DNA of 20,992 nucleotides, from positions 1 through 20,992 of the IMG/VR virus record IMGVR_UViG_3300034375_000869. The stretch is one strand, 5' to 3'. The notes beneath the pieces are model-generated. The model made no database searches. It was given only the letters and a program-made list of their open reading frames with translations, and had not been told where the DNA came from. How positions within the stretch are numbered: the first letter of the stretch is position 1; each line of letters opens with the position of its first letter. The DNA is from a virus. Positions 1 to 19,141 of the stretch are shown here, one piece after another. The translations under genes and the position numbers were made by a program.

Positions 1-686
1 CTCAGATGCAACAACAAGCTTTGTTGTCTAATCAAGCGGCTCAGAATGCCGCAAGACAGTTTAATGCTCAAAGCGAAAATCAAGTAAATCAATTTAATGC
101 AAGTTTGGCATCTCAGATAGATCAGTTTAATGCTTCACAGCAAAATGCTATGGCACAGTTTAATACTGAACAACAAAATCGTCAAGAGTTAGCTAATCAA
201 CAAGCTCAAAATCAAGCTTCTTTAACTAATGCTGGAATTGCGGCAAATCTACAACAAACAAGAATGCAAGTTGCAAGTAATGAATATATTGCAAACAATC
301 AAATGACTTTACAGGCTCAACAGTTTGTGGCTGATCAAGAGTTTAGGCGTGATCAATTTAATGCCGCAAATGCACAGGCGATTGCACAGGCTGATGTAGC
401 TTGGAAGCGACAGTTGGCTACAGCAGACACTGCCGCACAAAATGCCGCTAATCAGCAAAACGCTCAAAACGCTTTTAATATGAGCTTACAAGAGCAACAA
501 AATATGTGGCAACAGTTTAGAGATGAAGCAAACTATCTCAGACAGCAATATGAAAACGAAGAAACTAGAAAGACTCAGTTGTATGCTGTAGCTTTAGGTA
601 ACGAGGCGGCGGCTGGTAAAGATTCAAAAACGGGTACTACCGCTTTAAAAAATCTAGTTGATTTAATATTTCCGGGTGGAGGCTAA
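1..686 (+). CDS. Gln/Asn-rich coiled-coil virion-type protein (5' end cut by window)
   Basis: The frame is open to the window edge, so this is probably the C-terminal part of a longer protein; the first visible ATG is at base 6, giving 226 residues, but nothing marks it as the true start. The protein is very rich in Gln, Asn and Ala. Counting from that Met, Phe residues of repeated QFNA or QFNT units fall at 19, 30, 41 and 52, an exact 11-residue period expected of a hendecad coiled coil. A further QFNA occurs near residue 118. The C-terminus ends in a Gly run after a short hydrophobic stretch. No enzyme motif is seen. Its place directly ahead of the amphipathic and large internal-virion-type proteins, with a GGAGG ribosome site for the next gene inside its last codons, suggests a structural or internal core role. 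That role is inferred from position and composition only. Confidence 0.75.
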   Translation, partial: QMQQQALLSNQAAQNAARQFNAQSENQVNQFNASLASQIDQFNASQQNAMAQFNTEQQNRQELANQQAQNQASLTNAGIAANLQQTRMQVASNEYIANNQMTLQAQQFVADQEFRRDQFNAANAQAIAQADVAWKRQLATADTAAQNAANQQNAQNAFNMSLQEQQNMWQQFRDEANYLRQQYENEETRKTQLYAVALGNEAAAGKDSKTGTTALKNLVDLIFPGGG

Positions 687-690
687 GTAA

Positions 691-1959
691 ATGGGATTCT
701 TCAAGAAAATATTTAAAGGTATAAAAAAGGTCTTTAAAAAGATCGGAAAAGGAATTAAAAGCGCCTTTAAGTCTATTGGAAAATTTATGGGCAAGATTGG
801 CATTATTGGTCAAATTGGTCTTGCGCTTATCCTGCCGGGGATCGGGCAAATGTTATCGGGCTTATTAGTTGGGACAGGCAGTACTGTTGGTGGCCTTGCA
901 GGAGCTTTGCAGGGTATGGGCGCTGTTGGTCAAGCCGCCTCTAATTTTATCCAAGGGGCTGTAAAAATTGCTTCTAATACTAGTAAGTTTTTCAGTAGTG
1001 TTACTGACGGCGTTACAAATGTTATAGGAGAAACGATAGGTGCTATAGCTAATAAAGTTCCGGGCTTAGGTGATGCTTTAAAAAGTATTACTGGAGGAAG
1101 ACTAGACATAACGCAAAAAACTTTTTCTAGTGCTTGGAAGGTTACTCAAGAGTCTATGACAAATATAACCAAGGCTGGTGGTAATCTTTTTAATCTTGAT
1201 CCACTGTCTGAAGTATCAGTACCTCAAAGAACTTTAAAAGAAATTCCAGAAGATTCGTTAATGAATGAAGCACCTTTAAGAGAGGCTATTGATAGTGAAG
1301 GCGCTTTAGATGCTTTAACAAAAGACAGGCTTCAAACTGAAGCGGCTATGGCGAGAGTTGGGGGAGAGCCTTTATTAGGAGGAGATCCTTTTGGCCCTGT
1401 TGGAACAATAGATGGTGTAACTTATATGAAAGGGCCACCCCCCTCGTCTTTACTTTCTGGCAGTACTGGAAATATTGCAGAGACTTTAACTGAAAATATT
1501 GCTCAACAAAGCGGTGCGGGTACTGTAGCAGATCCCTTCTTTGCTTCTGGTAAAGCGGCAGTAGCCCCAGAAAAGTCTCTATTAGATAAGACTAGTGAAT
1601 TTATAACGGGTAAAAGCGTTGATGAAAATTTAGCGTATGGACGAGCAAAAATGAGGGAAGCAGTTACTGATTTTATACCTGAAACTGGAAAGGCTCTAGG
1701 ACGAGAGGCTATAGCACAAGCGACAGGGCTTTCACCAACTGCTGAACAGCTAAGGCCCATCGCTTATTCAAGTTCAGTAGCTCTAGGAGACTTTGAAACT
1801 TCTATAGGATTCAATGACTATGCTACTAGCCCATATCAAAGTGTTATTAATCAAGTAGGGCCACAGTATGCAACGTCCCATCCTTATGGTTTAATGGCGC
1901 AACAATTTAATTTTAATCAGTATCAAGAACAAGCAAGGGCTAGGGGAGTACCGGCATAA
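691..1959 (+). CDS. Membrane-active internal virion/ejection-type protein
   Basis: 422 residues, with GGAGG 8 bases before the ATG. The first about 35 residues are a Lys/Phe/Ile/Gly-rich amphipathic segment of repeated FKKI, IKKV and FKKIGKGI units with no acidic residue, resembling a cationic antimicrobial helix. Residues about 36-100 follow as a hydrophobic Gly/Ala/Leu stretch that could span or insert in a membrane. The rest is soluble-looking and ends in a Gln/Asn/Tyr-rich tail. Short phage proteins that embed in the host envelope during DNA ejection (T7 gp14 is the classic case) have this kind of character, but I see no sequence identity to gp14. It sits between the Gln/Asn-rich protein and an acidic 198-aa protein, and its stop overlaps the next start as TAATG. 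The membrane or ejection role is inference; a structural role is likely. Confidence 0.8.
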   Translation: MGFFKKIFKGIKKVFKKIGKGIKSAFKSIGKFMGKIGIIGQIGLALILPGIGQMLSGLLVGTGSTVGGLAGALQGMGAVGQAASNFIQGAVKIASNTSKFFSSVTDGVTNVIGETIGAIANKVPGLGDALKSITGGRLDITQKTFSSAWKVTQESMTNITKAGGNLFNLDPLSEVSVPQRTLKEIPEDSLMNEAPLREAIDSEGALDALTKDRLQTEAAMARVGGEPLLGGDPFGPVGTIDGVTYMKGPPPSSLLSGSTGNIAETLTENIAQQSGAGTVADPFFASGKAAVAPEKSLLDKTSEFITGKSVDENLAYGRAKMREAVTDFIPETGKALGREAIAQATGLSPTAEQLRPIAYSSSVALGDFETSIGFNDYATSPYQSVINQVGPQYATSHPYGLMAQQFNFNQYQEQARARGVPA

Positions 1960-2555
1960 TGGACGAAGAATATTTTGATGCAATACTGCGGGGTGGGCCT
2001 ATTCCCGGCTCTAGCCTAACTTCAGATCCAGATGACCCCGCACCTTATGAAAAGCCTCCACAGTATGTTGATGTTCATTCAGCTTCAGAATGGATTTTTT
2101 CTGAACTAATTGATGAAGATCGTTATGATCAGCTAATACAAAGTCTACTTGAAGGTATTCCTGTAATGGATGTTGTACAAGTAATTCTCTTTACAGGTTT
2201 TACGCAAGGTAAATGGGATGTAAATTTAATGACTCTTTTAATAGAGCCTACAGCCTATATTATCATGGCTCTTGCAGAAAGGGCAGGAGTGGACTTTGTA
2301 ATAGAAAGAGGTGAAGCCTCTGAAGAACAAAACGATCCTGTAATTTTGGGGGCTAGGTTATCTAAAGAGCGTAGAGATAATATACAAAAGTTTAAAGAAA
2401 TGAAAATGTCTCTTCCATTCTTGTCTGAAACTAGTCAAGAAAGGCTTAGAACAATAGAGCCTCCTGAAGCTGTAGACGGTAATGCTAATGCAGAAATGCA
2501 AGAAGAGCCTACTGAAAGTCTTCTTGCGGCTCCACAACAAGAGGTCATGGGATAA
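1959..2555 (+). CDS. Acidic phage protein of unknown function, virion module
   Basis: 198 residues, acidic overall. The N-terminus is Pro/Asp-rich. A central hydrophobic or amphipathic region (about residues 62-112) follows, and the C-terminal tail is rich in Glu, Pro and Gln. I do not recognise a family or catalytic motif. Start and stop are both joined to neighbours by TAATG overlaps, so it should be translated together with the amphipathic protein before it and the 481-aa protein after it. The context suggests a small internal or adaptor virion protein, or an assembly chaperone for the cationic protein upstream; both are guesses from charge and position. Confidence 0.75.
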   Translation: MDEEYFDAILRGGPIPGSSLTSDPDDPAPYEKPPQYVDVHSASEWIFSELIDEDRYDQLIQSLLEGIPVMDVVQVILFTGFTQGKWDVNLMTLLIEPTAYIIMALAERAGVDFVIERGEASEEQNDPVILGARLSKERRDNIQKFKEMKMSLPFLSETSQERLRTIEPPEAVDGNANAEMQEEPTESLLAAPQQEVMG

Positions 2556-4000
2556 TGGTACAGGGTATAGACGCAACATTTAGTCTGCTACAAAAACAAC
2601 AACAAGATCGTGCTGATGAGCTTGCAAAACGCCAAAGAGATCAAGACCTGACAGATACTATTCTAGGTGGTCTTATTAAAGGTGGTGTTGCAGTTGGTAA
2701 TGCTGTATTAAAAAATAAAACATATGATTTTTTAAATACTACTGAGCAACGTGGGGCTACTCAGCTTGCGGCTCAAGCCGATACTAATATTGCAAGACTA
2801 CAGGCAGAGTGGGCTGAGATAGACGCCGCACAAGGACTAACCCCCTTAGAGTACTTAACTCAAAAAGCAATTCCATTTATGGAGCAAAGTGTTAAAGCAA
2901 ACACACCCGATTGGAAAGAAGGCTTAGATGAAGTTGGTTATCAAAGTAAAGTTTATGCGGCGGCACAAGAAGTTGCAAAAGAAAGATTAAAAATTTTGAC
3001 TGAGGCTAGAGGTATTTACGAAGGTCAAGACATGAATAATTTTTCAAATCAACTAGAAATGGTAAGAAGCCAGTATCGACCTAACTCACTTGAAGATTTG
3101 TTTACTTCTACTTTTGCTAAAGCCTTTGATGGTAAGTCTCAAGAGGATCTTGATATGGAAGAGATGCTTGCATATAGAGACTTTATTGATGCTCAAAACC
3201 CAGCCTCTCGTGCATATCATGCTAAAAAACTAAATGCTCTAGTAGAGTCTTATGAAGAAACTGGTAGTATGTTACTGGCTCAAGTAGATGCTGTAAATAA
3301 AATGATTGCTGATCAAGCGATTGATCCTGATCGTGGGCCGATAACAACAAAACCAGTTGTAGATGTTCAAGCTATTGGTGGGAGGATGGTTTTAATTAAA
3401 AAAACTGAAACAACTGATATGTCCCGAAAAGATTTAGACGGTAAGCCCGTAAAAACATATGGCGATCCAACAGTTACAGTTTTAGATGAGAGTGAAACTA
3501 TAACTCCTACTGAGTTACTGACTGCTACTAGAAGTGCTTTTGACCTACAAGAGTTTTATCAAAATCATGTTAAATCTGAAGGTCAAAGAATTATTGCAAA
3601 AAGATTAAGAGAGCTTACAGATGCGGAAGGTAATCCAACTCCCCTATCATTTGGAGACATTGATAGCCCTGAAAAATATAAGACAGTTGCAGACATTATG
3701 TTTGAGGTTGTTGTTGGTACAGAAATTGATCCAGCAACTGGAGACATAAAAGATCCTAATCTTTTGAAAGATGATCTTGAGTCTAAAAACCAAGCGGCTC
3801 TTTATACAGAGCTAGTTAGAGTAGACCTATGGGCAAACTATGGTTCAATTTCACAGATGGATCCCAACGTAGATAGTAACGGAGATGGTATTTCAGACCA
3901 ACAAGAAGAAATGATTAAGTTTTTTTCACATCTAGCAAATATACGTGGGCGCGTAGATCAAGCTACAGGTATTTCGCCAGCAATACAAAGGAACCCATAA
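2555..4000 (+). CDS. Internal virion-type protein with a Ca-binding-like loop
   Basis: 481 residues, starting at an ATG that overlaps the preceding stop (TAATG). The N-terminal about 40 residues are charged and Gln-rich, probably helical. A short Gly/Val stretch (about 42-55) follows, then a long mostly helical, polar body. Near the C-terminus, residues 440-451 read D-S-N-G-D-G-I-S-D-Q-Q-E, an EF-hand or thrombospondin-3-like Asp/Asn/Gly loop that could bind Ca2+. No enzymatic domain is recognised. Length, position directly before the 1403-aa protein and helical composition fit the internal core proteins of T7-like virions (a gp15-like position), but this is inferred from order, not from recognised homology. 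Confidence 0.8.
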   Translation: MVQGIDATFSLLQKQQQDRADELAKRQRDQDLTDTILGGLIKGGVAVGNAVLKNKTYDFLNTTEQRGATQLAAQADTNIARLQAEWAEIDAAQGLTPLEYLTQKAIPFMEQSVKANTPDWKEGLDEVGYQSKVYAAAQEVAKERLKILTEARGIYEGQDMNNFSNQLEMVRSQYRPNSLEDLFTSTFAKAFDGKSQEDLDMEEMLAYRDFIDAQNPASRAYHAKKLNALVESYEETGSMLLAQVDAVNKMIADQAIDPDRGPITTKPVVDVQAIGGRMVLIKKTETTDMSRKDLDGKPVKTYGDPTVTVLDESETITPTELLTATRSAFDLQEFYQNHVKSEGQRIIAKRLRELTDAEGNPTPLSFGDIDSPEKYKTVADIMFEVVVGTEIDPATGDIKDPNLLKDDLESKNQAALYTELVRVDLWANYGSISQMDPNVDSNGDGISDQQEEMIKFFSHLANIRGRVDQATGISPAIQRNP

Positions 4001-4004
4001 AAAT

Positions 4005-7000
4005 ATGAGTACTGCAAATGTCCCAACTGTTTACGGCACTATCACGGTTGCATACGAAGGTAATCCAACTGATGAAGAACTGTATCGTATGGCTATGGAT
4101 AAGGTTCAAGAAAAAGAAAAACTTTCAAAAATTGATCAAAACTTATCAGTCAATAATCAGCCTAGTGGTTTTTCGCCTATCGACAGCAAACCTGTTCAGG
4201 AGGAGGAAGAAGAAGAGCCTGAAGATGATTTAGTTGCTGACATTGCAAAGGGTTTTTTACGTGTTGCAGAAGTCCCTCAAAACTTTATTATGGAACAAGT
4301 CTTAGGGATGGCTGGTTTAAGCGGTACTCAAAAAGAAGCTATGCGTCAAACACTAGAAGGCAGTTCACGCGAACAGTTTTTAGATAATATTGCGGCAGTT
4401 ACAGGTGCTGTAACAGGTAAAGAAAGCGACATCAAAGAAAGAGTTATTGATGAGCAAGGGCGCTTTAAAGAGGCTACAACACTAACAGGAGTTGGTCTAG
4501 AAATTGCTCCATATTTTGTTGGTGGTGCTAAAATAGGAACTACCCTATCTAGGATTGCTCCTCAACTTCCTATAATTGCAAATGGTCTTATTTCAGGTGC
4601 AACTATTGATTCAGTTTTACATAAAACTGGTGAAGAAGGTTTAGCAACAGACTTTGAAAGGTCTGAAGACGAAGGACTTTTAGAAGGTTTTGGAAAAGAT
4701 ATTGTAGAATTTTTATCTGTAGACGAAGACAATAGTATTGCAGAGCAACGCCTTAAAATTGCTTTTGAAGGCATGATTATTGGTGGTGTTGCAGAAGGAT
4801 TTTTTAGAGCTTTAGGTATCGTATTGCCAAAAGCAGATACCCTTGAAAAACAAGCTGAGTCTGCTGTAAAACAATTAAAAGAAGCTAGAGAAGCTGTACA
4901 AATAAACAAGTCTAATATTCATCAAGACCTAAAGTTTTCAGAAACGCCTAAGGATCAAGCCCAAATTGATCAACAAAACAGTGGTTTGCTACGGCGTTTT
5001 TATCAACAAATGCTTACATCTCGCGGATACTTTACAACCAACGCCTATAATTTATTTCGTGGTAAAGAATACGCACAAAGGCAAACTGTACGCGAAGCAG
5101 AAAACATTGCCAATCGTTTAAGCAAAGCATTGGACAAGCTTCCTGTTGATTCAGTATCTGAAGAAACTTTAACAGATTTTTTAACAGCTTCTTTAAACTC
5201 TTCATCAGACTTTTACAAGGGTTTAATTACTAAAGGCGAATATGAAGAAGAAGCGTTGCGTGTAGCACAGCGTATGGGTATTCCAGACGATGCGGCAATA
5301 GAGCTACTAAACGCAAGAAACCTTATAGATGATCTGTCTGCAAAACTTGCTAACTCTAGTATACCTAACGAACAGTTTAAAGAAATTATTACAGCTAATT
5401 CAGGAGAGTATATTAGAAGATCATATCGGTTGTTTGAAGATTCTGGTTTTAAGCCAGATGAAAATCTAAAACATCAAGTAGTTAAAAAATTACAAGCAAG
5501 TAAATTACTAGACAACCCAAACCTAACGCCTGAAAAAGCCTATGATCAAGCTTTAGGTCAAGTAGATGCTATTCTAAATCGTGGAGATTACGCAGGGCTA
5601 GACCACTATGGCAAGGCAGTGCGGGTAAATAAAGAAATTCTTACAGGCAAAAAAGATATTGATGCTGATATAAGACGGCTTATGGGAGAAGTTACAGATC
5701 CTGTTGATAATATTCTTTTAACTATAGGTAAAATGTCTCAGCTTGTTGAAACAAATAAGTTTGCTGATAATCTTTTGCAGTTGGGTAGAGATAAATATAT
5801 TTTTACTAGCCCAGAAACCAAAGGTAATGTTAAGTACGACTATAAAATTACAGGTACTAACTCATCATTAGACGGTAAATATACAACAAGAGAAATGGGT
5901 ATAGCCATTGCAGGCAGACAGTCAGAACTGTTGGATACTTCGCGTTCAGCTAATCGAATGATTCGTCCTTTACAAGAAGGCTATATTGCTTTTATGAAGG
6001 CTAAGGGTGTTTCTCAAGCTTCTAAGACTGTACTTAGTCACGTAACCCACCTAAGAAACTATTTGGGCGGTATGCAGTTTGGTTTGGCTAATGGAATCAA
6101 TCCATTTTTTAATAGATCTGAAACAAAAAGAATTTTAACAAACGCTATTAAGAATCAGGGCGATGCTGGCTTAGATGCGCTGTACGAAAAATATTTAGGG
6201 CTTGGCGTAATCAATACTAACGTCAAAGTAAATGAGTTCCGAAAGCTTATGAGGGCTGGCACAGAGCTTGATGGCTCTGCCGATGATTTTTTTGATGGTC
6301 TTAGAGGATACGGCATGGCTGGCGAAAAGGCCGCTGATCTTTATAAGTGGGCCGAAAAAAAATATGTGGCTACAGATGATTTTTTTAAAATAAATGCGTT
6401 TGAAAAAGAGCTAGATGTTTTAAAGAAAGCTTTTCCAGATGAGCCTATTGAAGTTTTGGAGCGCAAGGCCGCACAAATTATTCAAGATACTATGCCCAAC
6501 TACGACAAAGTACCTAACGGTGTAAAGGCTTTTAGGTATCTACCGATTGGTAGTTTTGTTTCATTCCCTGCTGAGATTGTAAGAACTTCTGCACACATTG
6601 TTAGGCAGGCATCAAAAGAAATTACTTCTGGTAATAGGGTTATTGCCGCAAGAGGACGAGCAAGGCTTGCTGGATTTACAGCATCTATGGGGGGCTTTGA
6701 GGGAATAGCTAGTACAGCGGCCTATCTTACAGGAATTACTAACGAAGAAGAAGAAGCTGTTCAAAGAATTTCACACACGCCTTGGTCTAAGGCCACCCGT
6801 ATTCCATTTAGAGGCCCAGACGGAGACATATTTGTTGCTGATACTCAGTTTATAGATTCTTATAGTGTTTTGAAAGAGCCTGTAAAAGAAGCCTATCACA
6901 TGATAGCTGATGGTTCACTAAAAGGAAAAGAACTAGATGAGTATTTAGTTGATGCCGCAGGAGCGTTCTTTGAAAAGTCTTTAACACCTTATACAGATGC

Positions 7001-8216
7001 TTCAATTATTACACAAGCTTTGGCAGATGTTTATGTTGCGGCTAAAAGCGACGATGGGCGTACAGCAGAAGGTAAACAACTTTTCCCTGAAAATGAAACA
7101 AGCATTAATAAACTTATAGATGGCGTTTCCCATGTTGCTATGTCAATGATGCCGGGAAGTGTTGATAGCCTATACAGGCTCTTAGTTGATGCAGACGCTA
7201 CAGGCATTGGTGAAATGTATTTTGATAAGCCACCAAAAGTTAGTGCGGCTACAGGATCAATACGCTACGACAAACGCGCAGAGCTTGCCGCCAATCTTAT
7301 TGGAATTCGTTTTAGTCGATTAGACCCTAAAGACAAAATGTTTTATGCGTCTAGCGATTTTCAAAATCATGGTCGCGCTGATTTTTCTAAGAGAATAAAT
7401 TTTGGCGATAAGCCAGAAGATATTTCAAGAGAACAAAAAAGAAACTTGCGGTCAAACTATGACGCCCAGCAAGACCTTTATCTTATGTATGATAGTGTAA
7501 AAGAACTAGTTGGTGACGTAGAAGCTCGTAAAGTTATGAAGAGCGCAGGACTGAGTGACCAAGCCATCGCCAGAATCGCAGGAAATAGTTATTATGATAT
7601 AGACTATGCGCGAACAAGATCTGAAGATTTGTTTACAAAAGTACAGGGACAGCCAGAAAAAATACAACAACTAATTAGAGAGCTAAACGGCGCTCAATAT
7701 CAGTATCGCAGTACACCTTTAATACCTGTTGATGAGGCAGGAAGAGAGCGTCAAGAGCGTTTACCAAAAGCTAAAGGAGGGCTAGTGTTAAACGTCCCTC
7801 AAGCCCCTGTAGAGCCTGACGAGCGCATAGACAAGCTGACAGGAAGGCCCTATATTGAACAGGCCGGTGGAGCCTTTACAGACGAAGAAGAGCGTTCAGG
7901 CTTTGCGGGAGGCGGCATCACAAGGCGCTATGCAGTTGCCAAGGGCGGCAAGATCGACAAGAAGAAGATGGCCTGTAACAAGCCTCGACGCACACCAAAC
8001 CACCCTAAGAAGTCTCATGTTGTCAAAGCCTGCGAAGGCGGTAAAGAAAAGATTATTCGCTTTGGTGAGCAAGGCGCTAAGACTGCTGGCAAACCAAAGT
8101 CTGGTGAATCTGCACGTATGAAGGCCAAGCGCAAGAGCTTTAAAGCCCGTCATGCTAGAAACATCAAGCGCGGAAAGATGTCTGCGGCTTATTGGGCTGA
8201 TAAGGTCAAGTGGTAA
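4005..8216 (+). CDS. Giant internal virion-type protein with fused basic C-terminal domain
   Basis: 1403 residues, by far the largest gene here and in the position of the large gp16-like ejection protein of T7-like phages. An acidic Glu run lies near residues 66-73. Hydrophobic Gly/Ala/Ile stretches lie around 160-205, 250-275 and 890-920, and the remainder looks mainly helical. I see no lysozyme or transglycosylase catalytic motif. Near residues 1255-1315 are Gly-rich patches (AKGGLV, FAGGGI, AKGGKI). The last about 82 residues, from Met1322 (base 7968), form a strongly basic Cys/Lys/Arg-rich domain ending AAYWADKVKW. As far as I recall, that segment is a stand-alone small protein in other marine phages, so it looks like an in-frame gene fusion. 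The ATG is only 4 bases after the previous stop, and the nearest purine-rich AAGGA lies rather far upstream. Role as a DNA-ejection or core protein is inferred. Confidence 0.85.
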   Translation: MSTANVPTVYGTITVAYEGNPTDEELYRMAMDKVQEKEKLSKIDQNLSVNNQPSGFSPIDSKPVQEEEEEEPEDDLVADIAKGFLRVAEVPQNFIMEQVLGMAGLSGTQKEAMRQTLEGSSREQFLDNIAAVTGAVTGKESDIKERVIDEQGRFKEATTLTGVGLEIAPYFVGGAKIGTTLSRIAPQLPIIANGLISGATIDSVLHKTGEEGLATDFERSEDEGLLEGFGKDIVEFLSVDEDNSIAEQRLKIAFEGMIIGGVAEGFFRALGIVLPKADTLEKQAESAVKQLKEAREAVQINKSNIHQDLKFSETPKDQAQIDQQNSGLLRRFYQQMLTSRGYFTTNAYNLFRGKEYAQRQTVREAENIANRLSKALDKLPVDSVSEETLTDFLTASLNSSSDFYKGLITKGEYEEEALRVAQRMGIPDDAAIELLNARNLIDDLSAKLANSSIPNEQFKEIITANSGEYIRRSYRLFEDSGFKPDENLKHQVVKKLQASKLLDNPNLTPEKAYDQALGQVDAILNRGDYAGLDHYGKAVRVNKEILTGKKDIDADIRRLMGEVTDPVDNILLTIGKMSQLVETNKFADNLLQLGRDKYIFTSPETKGNVKYDYKITGTNSSLDGKYTTREMGIAIAGRQSELLDTSRSANRMIRPLQEGYIAFMKAKGVSQASKTVLSHVTHLRNYLGGMQFGLANGINPFFNRSETKRILTNAIKNQGDAGLDALYEKYLGLGVINTNVKVNEFRKLMRAGTELDGSADDFFDGLRGYGMAGEKAADLYKWAEKKYVATDDFFKINAFEKELDVLKKAFPDEPIEVLERKAAQIIQDTMPNYDKVPNGVKAFRYLPIGSFVSFPAEIVRTSAHIVRQASKEITSGNRVIAARGRARLAGFTASMGGFEGIASTAAYLTGITNEEEEAVQRISHTPWSKATRIPFRGPDGDIFVADTQFIDSYSVLKEPVKEAYHMIADGSLKGKELDEYLVDAAGAFFEKSLTPYTDASIITQALADVYVAAKSDDGRTAEGKQLFPENETSINKLIDGVSHVAMSMMPGSVDSLYRLLVDADATGIGEMYFDKPPKVSAATGSIRYDKRAELAANLIGIRFSRLDPKDKMFYASSDFQNHGRADFSKRINFGDKPEDISREQKRNLRSNYDAQQDLYLMYDSVKELVGDVEARKVMKSAGLSDQAIARIAGNSYYDIDYARTRSEDLFTKVQGQPEKIQQLIRELNGAQYQYRSTPLIPVDEAGRERQERLPKAKGGLVLNVPQAPVEPDERIDKLTGRPYIEQAGGAFTDEEERSGFAGGGITRRYAVAKGGKIDKKKMACNKPRRTPNHPKKSHVVKACEGGKEKIIRFGEQGAKTAGKPKSGESARMKAKRKSFKARHARNIKRGKMSAAYWADKVKW

Positions 8217-8970: not shown

Positions 8971-9278
8971 TGGCACTTAAAAAGTCTCAGCAATCTTTAA
9001 AGAACTGGACAAAAGAAGATTGGGGAACTAAGTCTGGTAATCCTTCTACGCAAGGCCCAAAGGCTACAGGTGAACGCTATCTTCCTAAGAGTGCTAGAGA
9101 ATCTCTAAGCTCTTCTGAGTATGCCGCAACGTCTGCTAAGAAACGTGCTGATACTGCGGCAGGCAAACAGTTTTCTCAACAGCCTAAGAAGATTGCTCAG
9201 AAAACTAAGCGCCATAGATCTACTGCAAAGCATGGTGGGCTAATGAAGAACGCTATGCCCAGAGGAAAACCCTGCTAG
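8970..9278 (+). CDS. DUF6321-like small basic protein
   Basis: 102 residues, starting at an ATG that overlaps the DUF5872-like stop; a GGGGG run lies about 10 bases upstream. The sequence begins MALKKSQQSLKNWTKEDWGT and continues with STQGPKATGERYLP, SSSEYAATSAKKRA and AGKQFSQQPKKIAQKT. I associate this pattern with DUF6321, a family of unknown function seen in phages. It is very basic and ends with a GGLMKN patch and a terminal Cys. It is the last gene of the rightward block, and its TAG is interlocked with the TAG of the convergent metalloprotease gene. A DNA-binding or virion role is possible but unproven. Confidence 0.7.
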   Translation: MALKKSQQSLKNWTKEDWGTKSGNPSTQGPKATGERYLPKSARESLSSSEYAATSAKKRADTAAGKQFSQQPKKIAQKTKRHRSTAKHGGLMKNAMPRGKPC

Positions 9279-10564
9279 TCTATAACTTCTATACCAATAC
9301 GCCTAGCTCTAGACATCACAGGCCGTAGCCTAGCGTCTGGATCTACGTACTTGTTCTCGTCGTGAATCAACGACACATTATATCTAACTCTATTGAGCGC
9401 ATGAGCAGTGTCTGACCACTCTATGCCGCCTGCCAATACATCTGTATACCACACATCAAAGATCTCATCGCAGTACAATTTAGAATTAGAATGAAACCAT
9501 CCTTCGTAACCATACGACATTAGATCATCTTTAGTGCCACAGATATCATTCCAGCCATGCCCAAAATCAGGGAAGATATATCCTCTGGCTTTATAGTCTT
9601 GATTTTCTGGGCCATGTGCAAGGCCAACACTGTGGCCTAGTTCATGTAGGTCTGTGTAATGAATACAGCGACTCATAGATGTAGGAGGCTTATTCTCTTT
9701 AAAGTACGTAGTCACATCTGCAACGCCGCAAGTATCTGGATAAGATGTGCCGTACCCTAAAGTAATATCTACTGGTAGGCCCGTAACCAAAGATTCTAAC
9801 TGTCGCAAGCTGTGCCAATGTGCAAGATAAAGTTTAGTTAGTTTATATCTTATGTGAACGCCAGATCTTTCATAGACTTTATTATATTTGTCTATGCGAT
9901 ATTCCCACTTGCGCCACTGGGCATGGTCTTCATCCCACTCTTCAAGAATCTCTATAGGTACGTCTATTCCATATTCAGTATGTGATGCGTAAACAAGTAC
10001 ACCTAACTCCCACGTTACAATCCTATCGTCATCTTCCCCATAGTAAATAAGTTCTTGACCGCCTTTTTGTGTATGGCCTTCACAATCAATGCGACTACTA
10101 CTACCATACCATTTAGGCTCGTCTACAAACTCACAGATAGGTTCTTTTTCTATACGGAATTGTATTTCAGTTCTGCCTAGCGTAAAGATACCATCGCCTG
10201 TACGACCATCTCCATAGATCTTCACAGTGCAACAGCCTTCACGCTCTGCATAACCCATAGATATTTTATGGTGTACCATGCCCCAGCTTTCTTCACGGCC
10301 CAGCATATCCTTATAATCTACGTTGACTATGGCAGGATCAAACCTGTCTCCAACATCTTTTTCCATTGACAGGTTTAGATAGCGACGATAACCACACCTC
10401 CAAGATCTAGGATCTTTTATTGTGTAGCGATTGCCGTCAGCGTCTTCGTAGATAAACCACTCTACCCCCAGATAATCTTTAGAACAACCAGATCTTATTA
10501 GGGTGTCGGTATTCGCCATCGGCGCAGACACCAACATAAACGCAAATAGAATGTATTTAAACAT
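9275..10564 (-). CDS. Secreted metzincin-type zinc metalloprotease
   Basis: 429 residues. Residues 1-18 look like a signal peptide (one Lys, hydrophobic core, Ala/Pro/Met/Ala end), so export from the cytoplasm is expected. The catalytic signature is complete: HELGHSVGLAH at 307-317 (HExxHxxGxxH, zinc ligands H307, H311 and H317, catalytic E308) and a Met-turn, DLMSYG, with M349. These two together define metzincins (the M10/M12-type clan); I cannot assign a precise family. Ten Cys residues (27, 57, 111, 112, 144, 161, 279, 300, 342, 365) fit disulfides in an extracytoplasmic protein. The first about 220 residues have no domain I recognise. It is the last gene of the leftward block, its ATG overlapping the preceding stop. 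Possible roles are cleavage of host envelope or surface proteins at release, or virion maturation; neither is shown by the sequence. Phage metzincins are uncommon in textbook T7-like genomes. Confidence 0.9.
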   Translation of the reverse strand: MFKYILFAFMLVSAPMANTDTLIRSGCSKDYLGVEWFIYEDADGNRYTIKDPRSWRCGYRRYLNLSMEKDVGDRFDPAIVNVDYKDMLGREESWGMVHHKISMGYAEREGCCTVKIYGDGRTGDGIFTLGRTEIQFRIEKEPICEFVDEPKWYGSSSRIDCEGHTQKGGQELIYYGEDDDRIVTWELGVLVYASHTEYGIDVPIEILEEWDEDHAQWRKWEYRIDKYNKVYERSGVHIRYKLTKLYLAHWHSLRQLESLVTGLPVDITLGYGTSYPDTCGVADVTTYFKENKPPTSMSRCIHYTDLHELGHSVGLAHGPENQDYKARGYIFPDFGHGWNDICGTKDDLMSYGYEGWFHSNSKLYCDEIFDVWYTDVLAGGIEWSDTAHALNRVRYNVSLIHDENKYVDPDARLRPVMSRARRIGIEVID

Positions 10565-10791
10565 TAGAGTATTCTATTGATGGCGTCTATGTCTGTCTCA
10601 ATCTTTGAGTGCATATCTCCGGTATGTTCTTTAAAGGACTTTATTGCCGCACGAACTAGTATTTGAGTTTCTTCTTCACGAAATACTTTTGCAATATGTT
10701 CGTCAGGAAATTCAGTAGCTTCGGTAACAAAAAGCCCTTCTGAATCTATCAGGATGCGGAAGCCTATTATTGTTGCATCCTTCTGAGACAT
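10564..10791 (-). CDS. Small protein of unknown function between nrdJ and metalloprotease
   Basis: 75 residues from the ATG at 10791, which overlaps the stop of the reductase gene (TAATG); its own stop overlaps the start of the metalloprotease in the same way. The longer reading frame upstream runs inside the reductase tail and is not needed. The sequence is mixed alpha/beta in appearance (an Ile/Gly strand near residues 7-15, an acidic middle and a helical C-terminus). No family is recognised. Tight coupling to nrdJ suggests expression with nucleotide metabolism, without telling its function. Confidence 0.7.
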   Translation of the reverse strand: MSQKDATIIGFRILIDSEGLFVTEATEFPDEHIAKVFREEETQILVRAAIKSFKEHTGDMHSKIETDIDAINRIL

Positions 10792-12674
10792 TAGAGTTCG
10801 CAAGCACCGCCAACACAAGCTAGTGTTTGCGCTCCTTCAGTGAAGTCATCTGACTCATTAAGATCCCAATCAAAGGCTGTCGGGAAATCTTTTACCATTT
10901 CATTATATTCCTCTTCCGTGATCTGCTCATATGGTGCTTGAGCATATGTGTGTTCATCATATGGTAAGAAACTAATACCAGAAACTGTATCAAAGTTATT
11001 GTAAACCCAATTACCAATCTCAAGGAAGTCAGAGTCCCGATAGTACACAGTAATACTAGGCTTGTGTTCACACCAATGTTCTTGGTATGCGGCCCATAGT
11101 TCTAACTGTTCCATACCAGACTGCTCAGAAGCGAACACAGCGCCCTCTGGAGCCTTCTTAGGGAAGGAGAATACCTTAGTACTAGGTGAGAAGTTATCCA
11201 TCTCACAGGGTACTCCAGCGTCTTCTAAGACCGCACATAATGGGTCACGCATATCAGCCCTAACCCTCCGAATATAATAAGGAGCATAGCGTCCGTGGAT
11301 TCCTGATGCTGAATCTACTAGTTGTGACACCGTACCACTAGGCTTAACACAAGTAATAGCCGCACTCTGAGGAATACCTAAGCGTTCTGCCCAGATCTTA
11401 TTAGTCTCGACGGCCTCTTCACGCAGAGTCGTAAGAAGCTTATCAAGGTTCTTGTTCTCTAGCGTGAGTAGTGGGTTGTCAAGAATACCTGTCAGGCTCA
11501 CGCCCAACAAAGATTCTTCTTCTGTATTAGTTTTCCAAATACCTCTCAGGTAGCGGAAGTCCGTGAGCGTGGCTTGGAGAGTACCCAAGATAGTCGCAAT
11601 TCGTACTTTTCTCCGAAGAGTGTTAAGTGTATCTTTCGGTCTGACGACAACTTCTGAAAGGTTGCAGAATTGATTTGGTCTAAGGATGATTTCACTGCAT
11701 GGGTTCGTTCCGAAATCTCTGTCACTATCTCGTCTACCGTTTCTTGAAGCTTGTTTTTTACTAGCCGCACGGCTGAATATTCCTCGTTCTCCACTTTGTG
11801 ATTCATGTAAGCTACTCCATTCGTTAGAAAATAAATTAAAAGAAGGCTTGCTAGTATAGCAGGCACTGTTATTTGCAAGGCCACGCTGTGGTTCTGTATT
11901 GTACCAAGCACCGTGCTTTGCTTGACGGATATCATCATCCGATAAATCAGAGAGGCTGATAAGCGCAGAGCGCCTAACCCCACCTACAACAACTATTTGA
12001 GCGATTTTACAGCAAAGATCGTGGCATTCAAGGGGCGTAAGCTTTCGTCCAGCCGCTCCTTTAAATAATCTAACTGCAAATTTGAAGAGTTCAACAAGAG
12101 GTTCTGGGCCACTTGCTCGACCTCCAAAAGTTTTAAGGCTGGAACCCGTAGGTCGAACTCTAGATGTATCCCATTCTGGTATTTGACCTGAATACAGCAA
12201 CGAAACCAATTCCCTAAACGATTTCGCCCATCCAATTTTTGAATCTGGTATATGTATGACTGTATCTGTTGCATGGAAATCCTCTGCAATTTCTGGAAGC
12301 TTAGAAACATACTGCTCTTCAACACTGAAGCCAACGCCTGTACCACACATAAGTACATACATCATCTCGTCAAAAGCACGAGGGCTATCAATAGCAAGAT
12401 AACTACAATTAAAGCCTGCTACATTGTCACGATCTAAAGCTTCGCCAGCGGTCATCAAGGCTCGCATGGATGGCATAACTTCCAAGCCATGAATAGCTTT
12501 GTAGATTTCTTTTTGTTCGTCTACATTAAGCTTGTCGCCCCAATAATTTACATAACGATTAACTGTTTCTTCCCATGTCTCGCGGCGTTCTTCGTGTGGA
12601 AGATATCTAGCGTAACGACTCTTGTGAATATAAGACTCATACGAACCAAGTTCATTTGTTTCAAAGGTACTCAT
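10791..12674 (-). CDS. nrdJ: Adenosylcobalamin-dependent (class II) ribonucleotide reductase, monomeric type
   Basis: 627 residues. It reduces ribonucleotides to deoxyribonucleotides in the cytoplasm, using B12 to generate the thiyl radical. Visible signatures are GFNCSYL with C90 (reducing pair), FGTNPCSEI with N324, C326 and E328 (the active-site Asn, radical Cys and Glu), KPSGTVSQL, and a C-terminal ACVGGACEL whose Cys pair (620, 625) matches the redox-shuttle CxGGxC tail of the Lactobacillus-type monomeric enzyme. It is about 110 residues shorter than that enzyme (739). A GAGG lies 6 bases before the ATG. Roseophage and cyanophage podoviruses often carry class II reductases, so the gene fits the replication operon around it. 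It requires host cobalamin, so the host probably makes or imports B12. Confidence 0.96.
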   Translation of the reverse strand: MSTFETNELGSYESYIHKSRYARYLPHEERRETWEETVNRYVNYWGDKLNVDEQKEIYKAIHGLEVMPSMRALMTAGEALDRDNVAGFNCSYLAIDSPRAFDEMMYVLMCGTGVGFSVEEQYVSKLPEIAEDFHATDTVIHIPDSKIGWAKSFRELVSLLYSGQIPEWDTSRVRPTGSSLKTFGGRASGPEPLVELFKFAVRLFKGAAGRKLTPLECHDLCCKIAQIVVVGGVRRSALISLSDLSDDDIRQAKHGAWYNTEPQRGLANNSACYTSKPSFNLFSNEWSSLHESQSGERGIFSRAASKKQASRNGRRDSDRDFGTNPCSEIILRPNQFCNLSEVVVRPKDTLNTLRRKVRIATILGTLQATLTDFRYLRGIWKTNTEEESLLGVSLTGILDNPLLTLENKNLDKLLTTLREEAVETNKIWAERLGIPQSAAITCVKPSGTVSQLVDSASGIHGRYAPYYIRRVRADMRDPLCAVLEDAGVPCEMDNFSPSTKVFSFPKKAPEGAVFASEQSGMEQLELWAAYQEHWCEHKPSITVYYRDSDFLEIGNWVYNNFDTVSGISFLPYDEHTYAQAPYEQITEEEYNEMVKDFPTAFDWDLNESDDFTEGAQTLACVGGACEL

Positions 12675-15168: not shown

Positions 15169-15742
15169 TTTTTTCTTCCTTGTATTTTGTAAGCCGCATA
15201 ACTCTAGCTCTTCCTATCTTATCACCTCTATAAAATATAAGTCCTTTTAGCTCAAGCTGTCTGGGAATCCAGCCTACCCTTTCTTCGCCCCACTCTCCAG
15301 CATGGTCATCTTTTAGTTGTCTTGAGGTTAGGCCCAGTTCTCCCCGTTCTTCCAAAATATTTAAAATATGTTGCTCTATTTTTTCATCTTCTTTTGCTTT
15401 AGCCTCTACTGCATTTTGATATGTAGCTTCTTGTTCCTTTAGATATTCATCATTATCAATATACCTATCTAAAAAATCTTTTATACCCATAGCCTGATAA
15501 TGTTTTTTTCTATTATTTTTATAGGTAGACCATTTTCCTGTAGTCCAATAATATGAAAACGTATCATTGTTTTTATTGGTAATCCACAACATACCGCCCC
15601 CAGCGATCTCATAATAAAAGCCACGCTCATCTAAATAATCTACAACATCTTCTATATCTTCTTGTGTGTAATGTCTGAATATTTTTTTACCTTTAGAGTT
15701 TGTGCGGTGATAATGCCACTTATATTCTTCAGTGTGTTTCAC
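15146..15742 (-). CDS. Unknown protein with probable winged-helix C-terminus
   Basis: 198 residues from a GTG at 15742, with AGGAG about 9 bases upstream. It overlaps the DNA polymerase gene by 14 bases and the next gene by 23, longer overlaps than elsewhere in the block. The N-terminal half is aromatic and charged (HYHRTNSKGKKIF, GGGMLWITNKNN, SYYWTTGKW). A Lys/Glu helical linker spans about residues 95-128. The last about 65 residues (ILNILEERGELGLTSRQLKD, WIPRQLELKGLI) have the pattern of a winged helix DNA-binding domain. AT-rich codon use and Lys/Asn/Glu richness set it apart from the polymerase beside it, which may mean a later acquisition. Not recognised as a named family. Confidence 0.75.
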   Translation of the reverse strand: MKHTEEYKWHYHRTNSKGKKIFRHYTQEDIEDVVDYLDERGFYYEIAGGGMLWITNKNNDTFSYYWTTGKWSTYKNNRKKHYQAMGIKDFLDRYIDNDEYLKEQEATYQNAVEAKAKEDEKIEQHILNILEERGELGLTSRQLKDDHAGEWGEERVGWIPRQLELKGLIFYRGDKIGRARVMRLTKYKEEKNENTARA

Positions 15743-17483
15743 TCCAGTTATCTCCTATTTTGTACTCACCATCAAGAGGGCAGAATAATTCTAGCTCCTC
15801 ACCCGACTGCTTTATTGCATCAACCCCCAGCATTCCTGTTGCATCAGCCACAGCTTCTTTTACCTCTAACTGCCACTCATCATGCACGTTACAAACAAAG
15901 TGTGCGTCCAGTGTGTTGAGCTTGATTAGCTGATTAAGATTTATCATCGCCTGCTTCATGATGATAGCGCCAGCACTTTGAAGTAATGTGTTCAGTGCGG
16001 CGTGTTCAGATCGGACATATAGCTTGCGACCATCTAGCCCTTTCAAGAAACCTTTTGAAGCCGCTCGTCCAACTGAGTCTTTAAGATGTTTAAATGCAGG
16101 GAGATTATCGAAGAAACGCTTTCTAAGTTCCGCACCATCTCTTTTGTTTCCTCCAACCACACTGCCAAGTTTTTCATCTCCTGCTCCGTATAAGAGTGCA
16201 TAGATAAATGTCTTTGCCTGATTTCTTGATTCAAGCCCTGCAAGTCTTTGGTTAGCTGAGTGTATGTCTCCGTGCAATATTTCATCTTTGAACCCCTCAT
16301 CCTTCATGTAGTGTGCAAGCATACGCAACTCAAGGCCGCTGGCGTCAATACCAACCAGCTTGTAGCCGTCTGCCACAGTCCAACAGGCCCGACACTCTTT
16401 GCCGTAGGGCGCTGAGAGGTTGGGAACCTGTGCCATGTTGGGGCTGTTGTGTGTCATGCGACCTGTGATAGTTCCGTTTGGATTAACAAAACCGCGAACA
16501 CGATCATCGTCGTGACAAGCCTCAAGCCAAGAGGACACCTGTGCTATTCGCTTCTGAAGCAGAAGGTACTCAGCAATCAGTGTGGCCTCTGGAATATCTT
16601 TAATCTTACTGAGCGTAGACTCATCAACGATTGGCTGACCTGTGGGTGTGAACCGCTTGGGCTTCCAACCAAAATCAATCAGATACTCACCAATCTGTTT
16701 ACGTGATCCAAGGTTGAAAGGAGTTTCTTCAATACGTACAGCCTTACGCTTTATTGCAATCTCTTCATATTCCTCTTGAGTCAAGCGGCTTTTCTTTTCT
16801 GAGCCTTGGATGAGGCCCATCTTAGATAGTGCGCCTGTCTTGGTAAAGTGTGGTAGAAGAATAGTTTTTAGTTGCTTAGGTCTGAAGGTCTTCTGCACCT
16901 CACGTTCTACTTCCTTGAGGCGATCAGTCAGTTCAGCGACAAGCAGTGTTGCGGCCTGTACATTCAGAAGAAAACCATGCTCTCTTTGATCTGCAATAAT
17001 CTTTAGTGCTTCATGTTCTAGCACTACAGACTGTCGGCTGAAGCCCCGTGATTCTGCTTTAAGATTATTAAACATCTTGGCGTTGAGTACTGCATCGTTG
17101 CGACAGTAGTTCAGCATCTCTGGAGAGTACTCGCCAAACTCTTTGTGATCTATTTTCTGAAGACCAATGCGATAGCCCCAAGACTCAAGGCTGTGCCCAC
17201 CCTCGCGTGTTGGGTTAAAGAGGCGAGACAATACTAGCGTGTCTACGATGGCGCGGTTCTCAGTCAGATCAATATTGTGTATCTTCTTGATGGCTGGTAA
17301 GTCATAACCAATGATGTTGTGACCTATCAGTTTGTCTGCACTGGAGAGGTGAGCCAAACCCTGAACAATCTCAGTAGGCCCAAAGGTCTTTGTCTCTCCA
17401 GAGTCAGGATCGACAGCCGCAATACACCATATCTTTGTAGGCTCTAGGCTGTCTGCTTCTATGTCAAAGACAATACTTTTCAT
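15729..17483 (-). CDS. DNA polymerase, family A, T7 gp5-like
   Basis: 584 residues, against 704 for T7 gp5. It replicates the phage genome with 3'-5' proofreading. Exonuclease motifs: FDIEAD (D7, E9), NIIGYD (D61) and YCRND (Y126, D130). Polymerase motifs: A, VGIDASGLELR (D380); B, RNQAKTFIYALLYGAG (R420, K424, Y428); C, NVHDEW (H535, D536, E537). The residue matching E. coli Phe762 and T7 Tyr526 is Tyr. The segment between the exonuclease and the thumb (about 200-257) is at the place of the T7 thioredoxin-binding insert but does not resemble it. The start overlaps the primase-helicase stop as ATGA. All catalytic residues are present. Confidence 0.97.
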   Translation of the reverse strand: MKSIVFDIEADSLEPTKIWCIAAVDPDSGETKTFGPTEIVQGLAHLSSADKLIGHNIIGYDLPAIKKIHNIDLTENRAIVDTLVLSRLFNPTREGGHSLESWGYRIGLQKIDHKEFGEYSPEMLNYCRNDAVLNAKMFNNLKAESRGFSRQSVVLEHEALKIIADQREHGFLLNVQAATLLVAELTDRLKEVEREVQKTFRPKQLKTILLPHFTKTGALSKMGLIQGSEKKSRLTQEEYEEIAIKRKAVRIEETPFNLGSRKQIGEYLIDFGWKPKRFTPTGQPIVDESTLSKIKDIPEATLIAEYLLLQKRIAQVSSWLEACHDDDRVRGFVNPNGTITGRMTHNSPNMAQVPNLSAPYGKECRACWTVADGYKLVGIDASGLELRMLAHYMKDEGFKDEILHGDIHSANQRLAGLESRNQAKTFIYALLYGAGDEKLGSVVGGNKRDGAELRKRFFDNLPAFKHLKDSVGRAASKGFLKGLDGRKLYVRSEHAALNTLLQSAGAIIMKQAMINLNQLIKLNTLDAHFVCNVHDEWQLEVKEAVADATGMLGVDAIKQSGEELELFCPLDGEYKIGDNWSETH

Positions 17484-19141
17484 AGTTCTATTTCTTCTTG
17501 CTGTTCTACTTCCATTGATATCTCACTGAGCCTACCACTGTCCTTGTCGTAAAACAAGTGTGTCGCTAAACCGACATCGCCCGTGTATCTGGACTTGAGT
17601 ACACGGACTCGTGTGGTGCTGGCTTCAATGGGATCTTCTGATTGCTGGTTACGCTCCAAAGATATCACACAGTCTGACAACTGAGCGATACTCTGTGAGC
17701 CACGTAGATGGTTGAGTCCTGTCTCAATACCATTCTCGTGACCGCGATTGCCATCAATCCTTCTGAGGTGCGACACAAGTATGAGGCCCACGCCCGTCTC
17801 TTCCACCAGCGTTCTGAAGTTGTGCATTATAGAATCTATATTGCGGCGTTCATCACCGTCCGTTGTCATGGACAAGAGCATATGCAAGTGGTCAAAAACT
17901 ATCCACTTACACTCAAGGCCCATTGCCATGAAGCGCAGTTTAGAAAACACACTATCAACATCGTTCATCCCAAGATGGGCATGGACAAAGACGCGGTTCT
18001 TGTTCTGCCCGTCATAAAGAACATTGAAGAAATTATCTATTTCTTCCTCACTGTACTTAGCTCTGACGCTATCAATGTGCAGGCGAGCATTAGCCTCAAT
18101 AGATAAGATACCATCAACAGTCCTACGCCAGTCCTCTTCAAGAGCAATGACGCCTACCTTGTCGTTGGTGTTGGTGATGAGCCAGTGTTCAAGCTCACGA
18201 GTAACACTAGATTTACCTAAGCCTGTGCCGCCTGTCAGTGTGATTAGCTCACCCTGCCGCAAGCCCTCAAGCTTTTCGTTTAGTCCCTGCCACGGGTAGG
18301 CAACGGATTCTTTTCGCTCCCGCTTCTTATAGTTCTCACGCTCTTCACTGACATTTAGAATCCCAGACGGCGTGTAAAGTTTTGAAGCCCACCATGCAGT
18401 AACGTAAGCTTTGTGATGACCCAGCTTGAGCATTTCGTTAGGGTCTTTGAAGTCGGTAGGAAGCGTAAGTATCTTCGCCTTTCCGGGCTTGATAATACGC
18501 GCCACTTTCTTTGAGGCTTCTCTTCCGGGCTTGTCGTTGTCGAAAGAAATAACCACCGTATCAAACGATTCAAGGAATTCAAGATTTTCTTGAATATCTT
18601 TGACTGCACCTTGCGCTCCATTCTTAACAGATACAACCGGCCATTTACTCCCCAAAAGTTCGTATGCCGCCATAGCATCACACTCACCTTCAGTGACCGT
18701 AATATATTTGCCGCCCGCCTGTGCAATTTGCTGACCAAAAAGGCCAGTTCCCTTGGCAGAACCGACCCAATTAAATACTTTATTTTCTCTACGGATTTTA
18801 GTAGCGACTTCTTCATTGTTTATGTACGCAGGGTAGTGGTGTTCAATGATCTTGCCCGACTCGTCTTTGACTGAGCGAACTCCGTATTTCTTTGCAGTCT
18901 CTAGTGAGATTGAACGGTCTGTTAATGCGTGATAGAAGGTTTGATTTTGAGAGAAGGGTGCGTTGTCGTTTGATCTTTTGAAGCTATTAAAGTCTGCCAC
19001 GTTGCCTCCTATTGCAGATTCATAGTCCTTGAAAAAGGTTCCACAACTAAAACATTTAGCAGTGCCATCTGAATTTATGGAGACAGGATCACTGCCTCCA
19101 CATTCAGGACAGGGCTTGTGGTACTCCACAAAGTCGCCCAT
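17480..19141 (-). CDS. Primase-helicase, T7 gp4-like
   Basis: 553 residues (T7 gp4 has 566). It unwinds DNA at the fork and makes RNA primers. Domains in order: zinc finger with C11, C14, C30 and C33; TOPRIM primase domain with TEGECDA (E151) and SFDNDKPG (D201, D203); then a RecA/DnaB-type helicase with Walker A GGTGLGKSS (304-312), Walker B IVFDHLH (D417), RGSQSIAQLSD (480-490) and an arginine-finger segment KSRYTGD (R518). The C-terminus is acidic (EVEQQEEIEL), as in gp4 where the tail contacts the polymerase. GGAGG lies 8 bases before the ATG. No Met lies soon after the zinc finger, so a short helicase-only form like T7 gp4B is not evident. Confidence 0.97.
   Translation of the reverse strand: MGDFVEYHKPCPECGGSDPVSINSDGTAKCFSCGTFFKDYESAIGGNVADFNSFKRSNDNAPFSQNQTFYHALTDRSISLETAKKYGVRSVKDESGKIIEHHYPAYINNEEVATKIRRENKVFNWVGSAKGTGLFGQQIAQAGGKYITVTEGECDAMAAYELLGSKWPVVSVKNGAQGAVKDIQENLEFLESFDTVVISFDNDKPGREASKKVARIIKPGKAKILTLPTDFKDPNEMLKLGHHKAYVTAWWASKLYTPSGILNVSEERENYKKRERKESVAYPWQGLNEKLEGLRQGELITLTGGTGLGKSSVTRELEHWLITNTNDKVGVIALEEDWRRTVDGILSIEANARLHIDSVRAKYSEEEIDNFFNVLYDGQNKNRVFVHAHLGMNDVDSVFSKLRFMAMGLECKWIVFDHLHMLLSMTTDGDERRNIDSIMHNFRTLVEETGVGLILVSHLRRIDGNRGHENGIETGLNHLRGSQSIAQLSDCVISLERNQQSEDPIEASTTRVRVLKSRYTGDVGLATHLFYDKDSGRLSEISMEVEQQEEIEL

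Follow-up and report, generated by a model that had tools for sequence, protein, structure and literature searches.

The helix gene, second of five genes in a conserved virion cassette, encodes a 422-residue protein with a lysine-rich amphipathic N-terminal helix and an adjoining hydrophobic segment. By design and context, and not by homology, this protein is probably, though by no means surely, an internal-virion or ejection-type protein that engages the host membrane. It lies in the window, the 20,992-base stretch of viral DNA analyzed here (Table 1). For short-tailed phages that infect abundant marine bacteria, T7 is the main source of what is known about the passage of DNA through both membranes. 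Should the helix prove to be the part that enters the membrane, it would provide a short, synthesizable segment and a marker for ejection cassettes in uncultured phages.

Table 1. Positions of the cassette features in the window and of ApxC-like genes in three cultured phages.
Feature	Position	Strand	Remarks
Upstream Q/A/N-rich virion-module protein, C-terminal 227 aa	3..686	+	cut by window edge
Ribosome-binding site of helix gene	678..682	+	GGAGG, from the sequence
Helix gene, 422-aa protein with cationic amphipathic N-terminus	691..1959	+	ATG 691, stop 1957-1959; proposed ejection (envelope-penetration) protein
Hendecad amphipathic helix, residues 1-37	691..801	+	12 Lys, no acid
Residues 38-105, hydrophobic, then Gly/Ala-rich	802..1005	+	no acidic residues
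Acidic helical protein, 198 aa	1959..2555	+	start overlaps helix-gene stop
481-aa protein	2555..4000	+	gp15-like by size and order only; no family match
1403-aa protein	4005..8216	+	gp16-like by size and order; matches PHROG phrog_22602 'virion structural protein'
ApxC-like acyltransferase gene, HTVC103P	L056 9458-9907		
ApxC-like acyltransferase gene, HTVC111P	L233 840-1247		
ApxC-like acyltransferase gene, HTVC112P	L229 start		

The earlier note singled out positions 691-1000, which encode residues 1-103, for about 35 N-terminal residues with only basic and hydrophobic side chains in a helical repeat. The amphipathic helix stands; the description of its composition overlooks glycine and serine. 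Residues 1-37 comprise K12 G7 F6 I6 M2 S2 V1 A1, with a net charge of +12 and Phe, Ile and Val totaling 13. The first acidic residue of the protein is D106, and residues 1-105 contain 14 basic residues. The helical pattern is borne out by the hydrophobic moment of residues 2-37, which is 0.705 at 100 degrees compared with 0.178 ± 0.091 in composition-preserving shuffles (0 of 20,000 as high); when any period was allowed, 0 of 3,000 shuffles reached the observed value. Power peaks at 98.5 degrees, or 3.65 residues per turn, corresponding to three turns per 11 residues, and the register is that of an 11-residue hendecad, not a 7-residue coiled coil. A survey of 175,106 36-mers from 273 distinct ORFs, each 200 aa or longer, in related loci found segments with a charge of at least +12, no acid and a similar moment in 37 proteins, every one a homolog of the window protein.

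The hydrophobic stretch proposed to follow the helix is real. Hydropathy has one clear peak, with a 19-residue Kyte-Doolittle maximum of 1.93 at residues 42-60 (nt 814-870), and the hydrophobic segment lies at about residues 36-62; the sequence is rich in Gly, Ile and Leu at 37-62 and in Gly and Ala at 63-105. Charge, moment and the order of helix and hydrophobic part are shared with cationic amphipathic antimicrobial peptides, and residues 1-37 form a net positive amphipathic helix, as a membrane-lytic peptide is expected to. Unlike those peptides, the window segment is joined to a 422-aa phage protein, and two of its homologs have a net charge of 0. A sequence search of the PDB found no AMP chain.

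AlphaFold2, run with a 38-row alignment, models residues 2-47 as a free helix, with pLDDT values of 87, 90 and 83 across residues 1-30. The segment is thus not buried in a globular fold, an outcome that would have counted against the earlier reading, although overall confidence is low (mean pLDDT 61, pTM 0.27) and poor past the first 30 residues. A monomer model of such quality cannot fix the state of the helix inside the particle. A fold search of the helix protein against viral models was uninformative (best E 0.27), and nothing significant emerged when A1, A2 and residues 1-50 were compared with PDB sequences. Matches to the T3SS translocon SctB2 (Pfam 0.0083, below cut-off) and to phiKZ_IP were put down to composition.

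Amphipathicity, not charge, is the constant feature of this N-terminus. To residue 33, each of 38 aligned homologs has hydrophobic residues at hendecad positions a and d, and 37-38 of them also at position h; residues 2-33 contain no acid. The scan seeded with the window protein, which yielded 51 viral loci, is biased toward the N-terminus because MGFFKKIF was one of its six seeds. To avoid this bias, a second set was recruited through the next gene, encoding the acidic protein; it consists of the best 80 of 469 matches and therefore favors loci whose acidic protein is closely related to that of the window. Of the 80 loci, 72 include the beginning of the upstream gene, the other 8 being left out since their contigs begin within the gene. 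All 57 distinct N-termini in this set are amphipathic (shuffle p < 0.01), with a summed power peak at 98.5 degrees; net charge is at least +8 in 53, and 33 are acid-free. L093, L100 and their duplicates carry +7. L117 and L133 have a net charge of 0 yet are amphipathic, and on this ground amphipathicity is taken as the constant. Strong purifying selection acts on the helix. Over 703 pairs from the 38-homolog set, residues 2-42 have a median pN of 0.145, pS of 0.722 and pN/pS of 0.20, compared with median pN/pS values of 0.73 for residues 43-105 and 0.86 for residues 106-165, a contrast that is qualitative because pS is almost saturated and the downstream regions align less well.

The cassette has a conserved order of Q-rich protein, helix protein, acidic protein, a protein of ~480 aa and one of ~1400 aa. 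Of 56 loci, 52 contain a match to the Q-rich protein, 53 to the helix protein and 48 to the acidic protein. This order recurs in HTVC103P as gp59, gp58 (bearing the lysine-rich helix), gp54 (acidic), gp53 and gp52; the HTVC103P cassette follows tail-fibre-type genes at the end of the virion module, and three small genes separate gp58 and gp54. To judge from gene order, the window carries the virion module of an HMO-2011/HTVC103P-type podovirus. The record begins within the Q-rich gene, with the capsid, portal and terminase genes outside it. HTVC103P-type phages are described as sharing HMO-2011-type morphogenesis genes in the available part of PMC8528129.

Among cultured phages, the acidic protein gene is the most widely shared member of the cassette. 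Its relatives occur in 22 phage records, representing 20 phages, and include HMO-2011, CRP phages, Slicky01, CHOED, MQM1, and Rhizobium and Sinorhizobium phages; SAR11, SAR116 and Roseobacter are among the hosts of related isolates. Cassette genes in ten annotated cultured relatives are labeled hypothetical, and the corresponding slot of HMO-2011 is unannotated. The 1403-aa protein matches PHROG virion structural proteins at 8.7e-23 and, weakly, Cellulophaga phage proteins labeled structural. Its residues 1317-1403 (7953-8213, +) form a basic domain of ~88 aa, phrog_7595, which is a C-terminal fusion here, whereas other loci encode it as a separate protein of ~92 aa; identity to its roseophage and cyanophage counterparts reaches 78%.

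The slot occupied by the helix gene was examined in 11 of the 20 phages bearing the acidic-protein gene, and among these only HTVC103P and Slicky01 combine a cationic helix with a hydrophobic segment. The slot of HTVC033P holds a hydrophobic 114-aa protein without the helix. The N-terminus of the CHOED protein is amphipathic and net negative, that of MQM1 is also net negative and more weakly amphipathic, and the protein of phage 1233 is net-acidic as judged by eye. The slot protein of CRP-13 has 292 aa and includes a transglycosylase domain (SLT, 21.7 bits vs a cut-off of 21.3), and HMO-2011, CRP-1, phiM6 and RHph_I3_11 encode short charged proteins that, by eye, lack the helix design. As these other slots hold different proteins, a membrane-helix function is not fixed to the position, and the helix would be one solution among several. 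The HMO-2011 slot (L137 7781-7987) is an open frame of ~68 aa between gp25 and gp24, overlapping the gp24 start.

This distribution bears on the acidic 198-aa protein, which the earlier note expected to form an oligomer with the helix protein. The idea gains no special support, since the acidic gene is kept in phages without the cationic helix. A role as dedicated helix partner or chaperone is likewise weakened: the acidic protein is conserved in HMO-2011, CRP-1, CRP-13, phiM6 and RHph_I3_11, all with a helix-less slot. It is modeled as helical (pLDDT 74), and a fold search against the PDB gave no match (best E 0.8).

Relatives of the cassette proteins carry envelope-related domains. The C-terminus of HTVC103P gp52 matches phage lysozyme (36.2 bits vs a cut-off of 22.3) and phrog_2083 'internal virion lysozyme motif' (1.2e-8). 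This protein is syntenic with the window's 1403-aa protein, the lysozyme end being gp52's own, and no phage lysozyme domain was found in five other large cassette proteins scanned. A LysM-like domain sits behind the hydrophobic region of homologs of the helix protein, in 15 of the 38 homologs, and 7 of the 72 loci of the acidic-gene-recruited set, against 1 of 579 other ORFs, as scored by a profile built from 12 of the 15 domain-bearing homologs. The profile matches PDB LysM chains (5yz6, 2.6e-4). Pfam LysM is matched by 6 of the 12 fragments, and an HTH model matches two, either in place of LysM or in addition to it. L027 scores 21.3 bits at full length (cut-off 20.9) and 25.8 as a fragment, L021 scores 16.3, below the cut-off, and the window protein itself has no LysM match in the profile search. 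Muralytic domains move among ejection partners, according to the accessible text of PMC8954989. Together, the cassette and the lysozyme, transglycosylase and LysM-like domains in relatives argue for an ejection-type protein.

For the 422-aa protein, we infer location in the virion, membrane insertion, pore formation and the membrane involved. Within the particle, the protein would sit alongside its cassette partners, and it would exit via the tail before the DNA or together with it. The 11-residue-repeat helix may then lie on the host membrane with the hydrophobic face down and, in most lineages, its lysines toward the lipid headgroups, and the adjoining hydrophobic segment would insert after the helix has settled. 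Several copies could form or anchor the membrane-facing end of a trans-envelope DNA channel, and related copies might also grip peptidoglycan by the LysM-like domain. The envelope-penetrating role put forward in the earlier note is partly supported: it is favored by the helix, the hydrophobic segment, the cassette, the LysM-like domains and the presence of the peptide on entry proteins, whereas the antimicrobial-type charge is dispensable, as L117 and L133 illustrate.

Such a role accords with the podovirus picture, in which ejected proteins build a trans-envelope channel; in T7, gp14 is assigned to the outer membrane, gp15 to the tunnel and gp16 to the inner membrane (PMC8954989, in the part available). 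The T7 gp14-gp15-gp16 set, like the window cassette, places a membrane-seeking protein ahead of proteins of ~500 aa and ~1400 aa. However, the window protein has 422 aa and one clear hydropathy peak, whereas gp14-type proteins are given there as about 180-240 aa with several membrane segments (PMC8954989). T7 gp14 also lacks a cationic amphipathic N-terminus (best 18-mer moment among its first residues 0.36, p 0.24) and has no similarity to the window protein (BLAST E 2.0; hhalign probability 0.1). The 198-aa acidic neighbor is closer to gp14 in size and position, also without similarity. N4 gp52, a 150-aa protein, was modeled by AlphaFold3 with an amphipathic helix and a hydrophobic part that form a nonameric channel (PMC12633501, as excerpted). 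It shares these two parts, and a place in a podovirus ejection cassette, with the window protein, but has them in reverse order, without a lysine-rich hendecad in its first 70 residues and with no sequence similarity. Neither T7 gp14 nor N4 gp52 emerged as a homolog.

A likeness also extends to long-tailed particles. For the marine siphophage R4C, the hydrophobic N-termini of the hub ('megatron') are proposed, in the available portion of PMC10276861, to insert into the outer membrane. The R4C/RcGTA megatron has an N-terminal iris/penetration domain (PMC10276861), a hydrophobic penetration segment on an entry protein as proposed for the window protein, and the J-like relatives L152, L160, L161 and L192 begin with the amphipathic peptide MGFFKKIFK. 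The megatron differs as the tail hub of long-tailed particles, and the R4C N-terminus is hydrophobic and uncharged, not amphipathic. An account of an N-terminus like that of the window protein was not found in the literature searched, whose coverage excludes subscription journals and which was available in part.

The same peptide start occurs on other phage proteins. A degenerate DNA pattern for MGFFKKIFK, a search that itself imposes these nine residues, matched 78 viral loci, all assigned to three entry-type virion protein families, with no match among the 78 beyond these classes; the N-terminal pattern defined the classes before they were checked, and the contigs include some duplicates. 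The window-protein family accounts for 46 loci, 37 with the acidic gene downstream and 9 ending too early. Another 26 encode 023Pt-like proteins, the slot class of HTVC027P-type podoviruses; the HTVC027P-type Q-rich gene comes next in 18 of the 18 long enough, and 11 also reach a large gp16-like gene. Six are central-fibre-J-like, of which three match central tail fibre J phrog_31 (6.3e-92, 2.4e-73 and 5.2e-21) and the other three match those by BLAST. What the pattern does not impose is the entry-type identity of all these proteins and the amphipathicity of residues 10-28 in J-like starts, present in 4 of 5 tested (p 0.0004-0.012) and absent from L189; L182 agrees with L160 at all of 56 aa, and the two were treated as one. 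The stretch past the pattern is borderline amphipathic in the 023Pt-type class (p about 0.03-0.19). The J N-termini of HTVC111P and DSL-LC06 are basic amphipathic helices, and that of HTVC112P is a net-negative helix.

Two podovirus ejection-type families and the siphovirus central fibre J thus open with the same cationic amphipathic start, by shared descent or by convergence; in J it stands where the R4C hub N-terminus is proposed to enter the outer membrane. Searching 257 Gb of prokaryote contigs gave 3 matches to MGFFKKIFK, one in the window-protein family and two in short frames that look spurious. The match in the window-protein family lies on a 44,770-base contig binned into a Sphingobacteriales MAG (L222), probably a phage contig, which may be a host hint or a binning error.

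We offer, with considerable reserve, the suggestion that a portable peptide for envelope penetration, made up of the first ~10-40 residues, is used across tail types and in some pelagiphages maybe matured by a phage-encoded lysine acyltransferase. If so, one penetration motif would serve short- and long-tailed phages. The acyltransferase lead comes from HTVC103P gp34, which matches the lysine acyltransferase ApxC (4whn, E 2e-4). HTVC111P gp50, which overlaps the J gene start, is assigned as ApxC-like because it is homologous to gp34 (34%, E 1.7e-22); alone, gp50 has no match in the PDB. ApxC-like genes lie directly upstream of the J gene in HTVC111P and HTVC112P and were not found in the window or the other loci compared. 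The J N-terminus of HTVC111P is amphipathic and lysine-bearing. That of HTVC112P, in the same gene arrangement, has a net charge of -4 and does not fit the acylation idea, under which lipid-tailed penetration helices would be armed before release. DSL-LC06 (L234 980-1465) likewise has a GNAT-type acetyltransferase gene upstream of its J-like hub (PDB 2aj6, E 0.0018).

The main rival to a membrane-engaging ejection protein, which we consider unlikely, is that the helix is an assembly element without membrane contact, packed inside the particle in a helical bundle or onto portal or core proteins, with the hydrophobic segment as the core of the bundle. Tape measure proteins such as that of TP901-1 have 11-residue repeats and hydrophobic regions in common with the window protein. 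The TP901-1 protein contains 25 such repeats, and its hydrophobic regions are linked equally to chaperone binding and to membranes in the available text of PMC5099701. The net-neutral homologs L117 and L133 stay amphipathic, as packing would predict. However, the helix has a period of 98.5 degrees, as against 102.9 for a classical coiled coil, its polar face is nearly all lysine in most members with no complementary acids, and the same start is found on entry proteins of unrelated build. The window protein matches PHROG tape-measure families (best 3.1e-8), and one such family weakly matches up to 23 of the 38 relatives, but the reversed protein also matches these families, to 3.2e-5, and so these matches lend homology no support; the related isolates CRP-9 and CRP-13 are reported as short-tailed by electron microscopy (PMC8528129).

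It is highly improbable that the protein is a DNA-associated core protein that holds packaged DNA or another nucleic acid by its lysine face. Twelve lysines in 37 residues would suit this function, and an internal protein would contact the genome. Yet the lysines are confined to one side of the helix, the other side being an unbroken face of bulky hydrophobic residues that all 38 homologs conserve, L117 and L133 lose the charge while keeping amphipathicity, and the hydrophobic segment directly adjoins the helix.

Slightly less probable still is a host-membrane protein made in infection (lysis accessory, exclusion or signal-anchored), for which a basic N-terminus followed by the hydropathy peak at residues 42-60 could act as signal anchor, but the gene is locked among virion-module genes, relatives carry LysM or swap in a transglycosylase, and the basic part extends over 37 residues in an ordered amphipathic repeat, a signal n-region being far shorter.

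Beyond the cassette, the window encodes a 429-aa protein (9275-10564, -) with a hydrophobic N-terminus and the sequence HELGHSVGLAHG, which we take to be a metzincin-type zinc protease motif, HExxHxxGxxH; the protein is possibly a secreted metalloprotease beside the virion genes of this marine phage. Positions 10791-12674 (-) presumably encode a ribonucleotide reductase, and 17480-19141 (-) are assumed to encode a primase-helicase. A probable family A DNA polymerase is encoded at 15729-17483 (-), and its closest isolates are HTVC103P-type, at 48%.
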